Below, piece after piece: positions 22,758 through 24,753 of a stretch of DNA of 64,000 nucleotides. Positions within the stretch are counted from its first letter, which is position 1; each line of letters opens with the position of its first letter. The stretch is from Sphingopyxis sp. (GTDB lineage: Bacteria > Pseudomonadota > Alphaproteobacteria > Sphingomonadales > Sphingomonadaceae). The stretch spans positions 1 to 64,000 of the forward strand of contig NZ_JAIBES010000022.1 of the NCBI RefSeq assembly GCF_019459305.1, written 5' to 3'. The notes under the pieces are model-generated. The model saw only the letters and a list, made by a program, of their open reading frames with translations. It was not told where the DNA came from and made no database searches. The position numbers and the translations under genes are program-made.

Positions 22758-23681
22758 TCATTTGGCGGGCGAGTGCAAGGGGGAAGGCGGCACCGGTTTT
22801 TTGGACGATGTTTCTTGCGCCAGCACGTCGCTCAGCCAGCCCTTGAAATGCGACATCGCTCCGCTTTCGGGGCGCGACATCAGGCGGGTGAGCCAATAGC
22901 GACCGGCGTCGATTTCGATTGTGAAAGGCTGCACCAGCAGTTCGGATGCGAGTTCGCGGGTGAACATCGCGGGCGGTGCGAGGGCAATGCCGAGCCCCGC
23001 GGCAGCGGCTGCGGCCATTAGGGCCGAGCTGTCGAACATCGGGCCGCGCAGCACCGGGGCGGGGACGCCAGCGGCGGCAAACCACCGCGTCCATTCGTCG
23101 GCGCGGTACGAGCGCAGCAGGCGTTCGGGTATCAGGTCAGCGGCGGTCTTGAGCCGCGCGGCGATGGCGGGGGTGCAGAGCGGGGTCATCGGCGCGGCGA
23201 GCAGCGGCTCGGCATGGGTGCCGTGCCAGGCGCCATCGCCAAAGCGGATCGCGAAATCGAGCGCCTCGCCCGCCAGGTCGACGCGGTTGTTGTTGGTCGA
23301 GATGCGCAGGTCGATCCCCGGATACGCGCGGGCGAAGGCGTCGAGGCGCGGGAGGAGAAAGCCGGTGCCGAAGGTGCCGACGACCCCGACCTTGAGCACC
23401 TCGCGGAAGCGGCCGCTGCTATATTGATCGAGCGTGGCGGCGACGCGGTCGAACGCGTCGGCGACGACGGGGACGAGCGCATGCCCCTCGTCGGTGAGCG
23501 CGAGGCCGCGCGGCAGGCGGTGGAACAAGCGGGTGCCGAGGCGGCGTTCGAGCTGCGCGACCTGATGGCTGACCGCGCCCTGGCTGACGCATAATTCGAT
23601 CGCGGCGCGGGTGAAATTAAGATGGCGCGCGGCGGCGTCGAAGGCGCGCAGGGCGTTGAGCGGGAGCTGGGCGCGGTCCAT
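22758..23681 (-). CDS. ampR: AmpR-like LysR regulator of beta-lactamase
   Basis: This 307-residue LysR protein resembles AmpR along its length as I know that family: an HTH start PLNALRAFDAAARHLNFTRA, then VGVVGTFGTGFLLPRL, ISTNNNRVDLAGEALDFAIR, GAWHGTHAEPL, LLRSYRADEWTRWFAAAG and GRYWLTRLMSRPE. Gly102, Thr103 and Asp135, which in AmpR shape muropeptide sensing and constitutive mutants, are at the same positions here; Tyr262 corresponds to AmpR Tyr264. It is transcribed divergently from a subclass B3 metallo-beta-lactamase gene, the standard ampR-bla layout. It likely activates that gene in response to cell-wall fragments. GcvA is the main alternative assignment. Confidence 0.85.
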   Translation of the reverse strand: MDRAQLPLNALRAFDAAARHLNFTRAAIELCVSQGAVSHQVAQLERRLGTRLFHRLPRGLALTDEGHALVPVVADAFDRVAATLDQYSSGRFREVLKVGVVGTFGTGFLLPRLDAFARAYPGIDLRISTNNNRVDLAGEALDFAIRFGDGAWHGTHAEPLLAAPMTPLCTPAIAARLKTAADLIPERLLRSYRADEWTRWFAAAGVPAPVLRGPMFDSSALMAAAAAAGLGIALAPPAMFTRELASELLVQPFTIEIDAGRYWLTRLMSRPESGAMSHFKGWLSDVLAQETSSKKPVPPSPLHSPAK

Positions 23682-23718
23682 TGGGCCTCTTTACTATGTC
23701 GACCTGTCTGGGCTCGTG

Positions 23719-23784
23719 ACCCCGCACTTGATCCGGGGTCCACGCGGCGGCGATGGCCAATGGTTCCCGGATCAAGTCCGGGAT
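23719..23784. repeat. Inverted-repeat element, family F, between ampR and the beta-lactamase
   Basis: CCCCGCACTTGATCCGGGGT at the left and TTCCCGGATCAAGTCCGGGA at the right are inverted copies of a common sphingomonad and alphaproteobacterial intergenic repeat. It occupies most of the regulatory gap. Confidence 0.75.
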
Positions 23785-23794
23785 TACGAAAGAT

Positions 23795-23809
23795 ATGAGA
23801 AATTCTCAT
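23795..23809. promoter_or_regulatory. LysR-type T-N11-A box, putative AmpR operator
   Basis: ATGAGAAATTCTCAT is a perfect inverted repeat around one central A and fits the T-N11-A rule for LysR binding sites. It lies 72 bases before the beta-lactamase start and 114 bases before the ampR-like start. Its sequence differs from the enterobacterial AmpR site, so binding is an inference. Confidence 0.6.
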
Positions 23810-23880
23810 GGTTTTGTCGAGAAATGATGCTTTGTACCGGGCGTGCCGACTTGGCAATTTGGCGGCGAAGGGAGACGGTA

Positions 23881-24753
23881 ATGTTCGAAGCAATCAGTCT
23901 GTTGGCGTGGCTTGCCGCGACGAGCGGGGCGCCGGTTCCGGCGGTTGATCCGCTGACGCAGCCGATCACGACGTCGCGGTCCGCCGAGTGGTTGGCACCT
24001 GCGCCGCCTGAAAAGATCTACGGCAACAGCTATCTGGTCGGGTTTGGCGGGATGAGTGTGGCGTTGATCGACACCGGGGACGGATTGGTGCTGGTCGACG
24101 GCGCCTTGCCGCAAGCGGCGCCCGCGATCCTGACCAATGTCCGGAAGCTGGGGTTCGACCCCAAAGACATTAAATTTATTCTGAGCACTGAACCGCATTT
24201 CGACCATGCTGGCGGGCTCGCGGCGCTGGCGCGCGACACCGGCGCGACAGTGGTGGCGAGCGCGGGCGGGATTGAGGGGTTGAAGTCGGGACGCCACGCC
24301 GCCGACGATCCGCAGCTCGCTTATGGCGGCAGCTGGCCCGCGGTGACCACGGCCACGCGGGTGATGGCGGATGGTGAGATGCTCAAGCTGGGCAAGCTGG
24401 GGATCACCGCCCATGCGACCCCGGGGCATACGATGGGCAGCATGAGCTGGAGCTGGCCGGCGTGCGAGGGCAACCAGTGCAAGACAATTGTCTTTGCATC
24501 GAGCCTGAATCCGGTGTCGGCCGACGATTATCGGTTCACCAGCGTTGCGGGGACGCCGTTCATTGCGGCCTTTGGGCAAAGTTATCGGACGATGGACGCG
24601 CTGGCCTGCGACGTCCTGATTTCGGCGCATCCCGACAATGCGGGCGAGGGGCGGTACAATTCGAAGCCGGGAGCGTGCCGCGCCTATGCCGATCGGTCGC
24701 GCCAGGCTTTGGCGAAGCGGTTGGCGGCGGAGAAGGCGGGGGCCGCGAAGTAG
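23881..24753 (+). CDS. Subclass B3 metallo-beta-lactamase, Glu-variant (B3-E)
   Basis: The start MFEAISLLAWLAA has GGGAGA upstream and gives 290 residues with a secretion signal. The first zinc motif is E-P-H-F-D-H (residues 104-109) instead of the usual H-x-H-x-D-H. The other ligands are His183 (ATPGHTMGSMSW) and His250 (LISAHPDN). SSLNPVSADDYRFT and the ending TMDALACDVLISAHP are typical of subclass B3. A Glu at the first ligand position is known from B3-E enzymes such as SIE-1 of Sphingobium indicum. It should hydrolyse beta-lactams in the periplasm. An AmpR-like gene is divergent upstream. Confidence 0.88.
   Translation: MFEAISLLAWLAATSGAPVPAVDPLTQPITTSRSAEWLAPAPPEKIYGNSYLVGFGGMSVALIDTGDGLVLVDGALPQAAPAILTNVRKLGFDPKDIKFILSTEPHFDHAGGLAALARDTGATVVASAGGIEGLKSGRHAADDPQLAYGGSWPAVTTATRVMADGEMLKLGKLGITAHATPGHTMGSMSWSWPACEGNQCKTIVFASSLNPVSADDYRFTSVAGTPFIAAFGQSYRTMDALACDVLISAHPDNAGEGRYNSKPGACRAYADRSRQALAKRLAAEKAGAAK

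Follow-up and report, generated by a model that had tools for sequence, protein, structure and literature searches.

An AmpR-type regulator paired with a B3-E metallo-beta-lactamase in Sphingopyxis: a conserved variant of the AmpR-bla module

In a window of 64,000 nucleotides from Sphingopyxis sp., which is the whole stretch of DNA analysed here, we found a real, conserved variant of the AmpR-bla module. It most probably works as an AmpR-beta-lactamase module with a B3-E metallo-beta-lactamase as the controlled enzyme and with muropeptide-switched induction, a reading to which we give a probability of about 80%. The identities of the genes, the AmpR/PenR membership of the regulator, the AmpR-type operator, the co-inheritance of regulator, operator and enzyme, and the homologs of AmpG and NagZ were computed directly.

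The ampR-like LysR regulator gene (22758..23681, minus strand) encodes a protein of 307 aa from the AmpR/PenR family, in which A42 replaces K/R42 of the recognition helix. The subclass B3 metallo-beta-lactamase gene (23881..24753, plus strand) encodes a protein of 290 aa with a B3-E (EHH/DHH), SIE-1-like zinc site. Both genes were found where the original prediction had placed them, divergent and separated by an intergenic region of 199 bp. The mechanical ORF of the B3 gene opens at 23611, and the ATG at 23881 was assigned as its start because it is backed by the alignment of relatives and by the Shine-Dalgarno-like AAGGGAGA (23868-23875, plus strand) which precedes it.

Identity of the regulator and the enzyme

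The regulator contains the domains HTH_1 and LysR_substrate, and among solved structures it is closest to AmpR of P. aeruginosa (5mmh, E 3.8e-74), followed by AmpR of C. freundii (3kos, E 1e-67), with GcvA ranking behind both (E 4e-51). The protein has all of the AmpR landmark residues expected from the original prediction (Gly102, Thr103, Asp135 and Tyr262). Of these, G102 and T103 are each kept in 33 of 34 class A/C-linked AmpR proteins, D135 in 30 and Y262 in all 34, and three of the four landmarks separate AmpR from GcvA, since E. coli GcvA has Pro, Ser, Asp and Phe at these positions. Generally, G102, T103, D135, S219 and Y262 are each kept in 53-55 of the 55 B3-E-linked regulators, where S219 and Y262 correspond to S221 and Y264 in AmpR numbering. 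The regulator scored 374.6 bits with the NCBIfam PenR model NF041130, a narrow Burkholderia model with a cut-off of 625, and 268.6 bits with the NCBIfam GcvA model, below its cut-off of 288.

The phylogeny of the regulator against AmpR and GcvA, which had been proposed as a check, placed it inside AmpR and outside GcvA. The B3-E-linked regulators form a single clade (96 SH-aLRT in the first tree; 96/95 in the rebuilt tree) surrounded by class A- and class C-linked AmpR, in trees which do not fix the branching order among these three groups. Because the branch of E. coli GcvA was very long in the first tree, the tree was rebuilt with paralogs from the own genome, and the outcome was unchanged: E. 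coli GcvA and the LysR paralogs of the same genome stand outside the AmpR group (split 94/98, rebuilt tree). The genomic context was summarised in a phylum-wide sample of 299 genomes, in which relatives of the regulator (E<=1e-75) occur in 28 genomes, two of them Sphingopyxis; 25 of the 26 non-Sphingopyxis relatives have a class A or class C beta-lactamase as a neighbour. Tree, residues of the ligand site and context all assign the regulator to AmpR/PenR. The same evidence rules out a GcvA identity, since the trees and residues 102, 103 and 262 set GcvA apart; placement in GcvA had been named beforehand as part of what would refute the prediction. Two other AmpR-family regulators, L054 (Sinorhizobium medicae pSymA) and L151 (alphaproteobacterium), have AmpR-like upstream sites, and no class A, C or B3 match was found beside them.

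The B3 enzyme scored 251.9 bits with the NCBIfam model bla_subclass_B3, above the cut-off of 240. Its nearest named relative is from Sphingopyxis bauzanensis (94%), and the closest solved structure is 7luu (E 9e-132), that of SIE-1 (PMC10318434). The zinc ligands are E104, H106, H183 and D108, H109, H250, the EHH/DHH pattern by which the B3-E group is defined (PMC10318434), and the B3-E enzymes form one clade with SIE-1 inside (99 SH-aLRT). On these sequence criteria, ligands and grouping with SIE-1, the enzyme is assigned to the B3-E (SIE-1-like) group, in agreement with the Glu-variant zinc site predicted originally. The accompanying label “carbapenem-type” was stronger than the data, because SIE-1, the one characterised B3-E enzyme, acts on all major beta-lactam classes, and on cephalosporins more efficiently than on penicillins (PMC10318434). 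Near its start, the leader peptide MFEAISLLAWLAATSGAPVPA (23881-23945) lacks the positive charge which classical signal peptides have there, and the leaders of relatives are alike; export of the enzyme is thus assumed.

Distribution and history of the pair

Among 80 Sphingopyxis genomes, 45 contain an ortholog of the B3-E enzyme (62-100% identity), the same 45 contain the regulator (76-100%), and the remaining 35 have neither. By coordinates, 43 of the 45 pairs are adjacent and divergent. In a draft genome (G081), the two genes are split between contigs, and the B3 gene lies at the edge of its own. In a metagenome-assembled genome (G089; L142, L143), the regulator also lies on another contig, with REP-like sequence upstream and no beta-lactamase neighbour detected, and the B3 gene retains its operator; this split is either a natural case of action in trans or an artefact of MAG assembly.

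Since genomes of one genus are not independent, a wider set matters. We therefore also considered 59 named B3-E loci from Sphingopyxis, Blastomonas, Sphingobium, Novosphingobium, Sphingomonas, Sphingosinicella and others, a set which overlaps with the 80 genomes in Sphingopyxis. This survey of ampR beside blaB3 in other sphingomonads had been suggested with the original prediction, and it turned out that a divergent regulator is present at 52 of the 59 loci and at none of 21 H-type B3 loci. The pairing had been expected to be uncommon, which holds only against the literature on class A and class C enzymes; in Sphingomonadaceae, B3-E genes are usually arranged in this way. The pair also occurs on plasmids of Sphingomonas and Sphingobium. 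One of the latter, pTomMM15b of Sphingobium sp. TomMM15 (L049), is typed conjugative and carries the pair near the relaxase gene trwC. Besides, the record labelled Arthrobacter sp. TPD3018 (L103) contains a B3-E/AmpR pair which groups with Sphingomonas, and the record is probably mislabelled or contaminated.

The B3 enzyme of other Sphingopyxis genomes (L022-L030, L115, L123, L128, L133) is of the H type and about 45% identical, and its gene has neither a divergent LysR gene nor an AmpR operator. A general linkage of B3 and LysR genes in sphingomonads is ruled out by these genes of the same genus. In six Sphingopyxis genomes without B3-E (L136-L141), a different AmpR (52-56%) is divergent from a class A beta-lactamase, so the partner of AmpR differs within the genus; no genome of Sphingopyxis contained both kinds of AmpR at the threshold used.

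Nearest to the base of the B3-E clade are two Caulobacteraceae members and a Novosphingobium pair, which have no divergent LysR gene, and no operator was found in the three that were scanned. Because these basal B3-E genes lack regulator and operator, the Glu site probably came first and AmpR was recruited later, a history which is suggested by few basal sequences and needs two later losses.

Operator and recognition helix

A near-invariant block, TTCTCATGGCTTTGTCGAGAAATGATGCTTTG, recurs between the two genes in the 21 relatives that were examined first, and at class A- and class C-linked AmpR genes a recognisably similar block occupies the corresponding position with unchanged internal spacing. 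To locate the site, 36-bp matrices were scanned over both strands of the window (127,930 positions), and the AmpR-type operator at 23800..23835 (plus strand) ranked first of all positions with class A- or class C-trained matrices. A matrix from ten class C operators only gave its top score of 21.6 bits at 23800 (+), with a runner-up of 13.0; with a matrix from 18 class A operators only, the same site scored 23.1 and the runner-up 11.2. Of all the evidence gained on the module, this ranking of the operator is decisive. Besides, a degenerate core pattern allowing up to three mismatches had a single match in the whole genome, at the operator. High operator scores were obtained at most B3-E loci with a regulator. 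The operators of a Sphingomonas subgroup scored near or below zero with the class A+C matrix, their aligned core being still visible. B3-E loci without AmpR are also without the operator, except one displaced case and one contig edge, and none of the scanned upstream regions of H-type B3 genes (21/21) had an operator score above 0.9.

In Sphingopyxis, the distance from operator to B3 gene is nearly fixed, mostly 74-77 bp, and the distance from operator to ampR is variable; this spacing fits an operator which acts on the B3 promoter. A putative -35 element of the B3 gene, TTGTAC (23832..23837, plus strand), was inferred from the alignment with other ampR-bla operators and reads TTGTCG in most relatives, and no consensus sigma-70 promoter was found in the intergenic region. 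The variable stretch between the operator and the ampR start contains a REP-like dispersed inverted repeat (23713..23791, no strand given), whose halves are CCCGGATCAAGTCCGGG, with nine genomic copies of the exact half. About a third of the Sphingopyxis loci have either a similar insert at this position or a longer intergenic region. In the leader strand of ampR, the segment 23682-23800 forms a hairpin (-54.2 kcal/mol, z -5.3), and the repeat may alter the ampR leader RNA. As an operator the inverted repeat was ruled out: it is dispersed and missing from many relatives, and the conserved AmpR-like site is 23800-23835.

The recognition helix of the B3-E-linked regulators has its own residues at two positions, with Gly at 35 and Ala at 42, each in 52 of 55 proteins. 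The 34 class A/C-linked regulators have Ala, Thr or Ser at position 35 and Lys or Arg (one Asn) at position 42. S38 and K42 have been cited as important to DNA binding by P. aeruginosa AmpR (PMC8401664); the Sphingopyxis regulator retains S38 and has Ala at position 42. The operator core at B3-E loci is TGTCGAGA, and class C sites read roughly NTGCNARA. The changes at 35 and 42 and those in the operator core may be matched to each other. A clade-wide change of K/R42 to Ala was not found described in the open-access literature searched. Tentatively, and at somewhat less than even odds, we suggest that AmpR was captured once in sphingomonads by a B3 enzyme already Glu-substituted, and that the pair then evolved a DNA code of its own (G35/A42 with the TGTCGAGA operator). 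This would make it a muropeptide-sensing circuit orthogonal to classical AmpR operators, now also present on at least one plasmid typed conjugative (Sphingobium pTomMM15b).

Proposed induction, alternatives and known systems

The genome encodes homologs of AmpG (38%) and NagZ (34%) and an AmpD-like amidase (42%, a match over 105 residues only). Given the known chemistry of the AmpR family (summarised in PMC13046382), muropeptide-dependent activation of the B3 gene is the best reading. These homologs support the tie to peptidoglycan recycling drawn in the original prediction. By analogy with the AmpR family, from which we infer DNA binding, ligand identity, induction, export and resistance, AmpR would bind the operator at 23800-23835, whose end lies in the presumed -35 region of the B3 gene. 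When the antibiotic is absent, UDP-MurNAc-pentapeptide would keep AmpR in a non-activating state. A beta-lactam that disturbs the wall would cause anhydro-muropeptides to enter through the AmpG homolog; after trimming by NagZ, their binding would turn AmpR into an activator of the B3 gene, and the exported enzyme would hydrolyse the drug. Several points stand against this reading: the change of K42 to Ala, the missed cut-offs of the NCBIfam PenR and GcvA models, the lack of a consensus promoter, the low-scoring Sphingomonas operators, the 105-residue AmpD match and the charge of the leader. The metallo-enzyme BlaA of Caulobacter, also an alphaproteobacterium, is constitutive (PMC13046382), which counts against induction as well; because of this report, the Sphingopyxis locus is a clean alphaproteobacterial test of muropeptide signalling.

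Other explanations were weighed against the same data. The score with the GcvA model, near its cut-off, could speak for a GcvA-type or other metabolic LysR regulator with incidental adjacency to the B3 gene, but this is hardly credible in view of the trees, residues 102, 103 and 262, the operator and the co-occurrence with the enzyme in 45 of 45 genomes. MBL-fold enzymes are catalytically diverse and B3-E enzymes are widespread in environmental sphingomonads, so the enzyme might mainly perform some other physiological hydrolysis, with beta-lactam resistance as a side activity and AmpR reporting wall stress and not the antibiotic. We consider this quite improbable, as the enzyme passes the B3 model and falls in one clade with SIE-1, an enzyme active on all major beta-lactam classes, and the close relatives of the regulator adjoin beta-lactamases.

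It is also conceivable, though unlikely, that the AmpR-derived regulator controls the B3 gene constitutively or as a plain repressor, with no induction by muropeptides. CARR of Phytobacter diazotrophicus, likewise a LysR protein divergent from a B3 gene (bla CAR-2), represses that gene, and penicillins do not lift the repression (PMC12434095); the change of K42 to Ala, by which the DNA contacts of the Sphingopyxis regulator would be shifted, points the same way. However, CARR is poorly conserved with AmpR (PMC12434095), while the Sphingopyxis regulator keeps the ligand-site residues and the operator frame of AmpR, and we retain muropeptide-switched induction as the preferred reading.

The locus matters for several reasons, among which we count the copy of the pair on a plasmid typed conjugative. 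AmpR induction is textbook knowledge for serine beta-lactamases, and in much of Sphingomonadaceae this switch, its operator frame unchanged, is coupled in cis to a zinc beta-lactamase. B3-E enzymes are therefore candidates for inducible resistance, which would escape assays on cloned enzyme genes alone. Besides, the set of B3-E-linked AmpR proteins provides natural data on the co-evolution of regulator and operator.

Compared with known systems, AmpR-AmpC (class C, such as ampR-blaDHA-1) has the same divergent layout, regulator family, ligand-site residues, and operator frame and spacing, but the target in Sphingopyxis is unrelated to AmpC, being a zinc enzyme, and there are differences in the operator core and at helix positions 35 and 42. 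Family and layout are also shared by the PenR/SedR-type regulators of class A enzymes, among them those of the six other Sphingopyxis genomes; they differ in the class A target, and those of Sphingopyxis are only 52-56% identical and occur in genomes without B3-E. In VarR-VarG of Vibrio cholerae, a LysR regulator is divergent from a metallo-beta-lactamase gene and de-repressed by penicillin G (PMC5595328), but the subclass of VarG was left open by its authors and an efflux pump belongs to the same regulon. SIE-1 of Sphingobium indicum has the EHH/DHH site and falls in the same clade as the Sphingopyxis enzyme; its review mentions no regulator (PMC10318434), and the nearest locus of the SIE-1 branch that we examined, S. 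fuliginis L094 (85% to SIE-1), has a divergent AmpR and an operator. A search for SmbR/SMB-1 gave no result, and nothing relevant on an ampR-B3-E pair in sphingomonads was found in the open-access literature, most subscription papers lying outside that search.

In conclusion, what appears new, as far as we found it described, is the cis pairing of AmpR with a B3-E enzyme. In S. maltophilia, ampR lies beside L2, a class A gene, and its action on the B3 gene L1 is in trans. AmpR control of a B3 enzyme is already known, since this AmpR with AmpNG and NagZ induces L1 (PMC5574705), but in Sphingopyxis the divergent partner of ampR is the B3-E gene itself.
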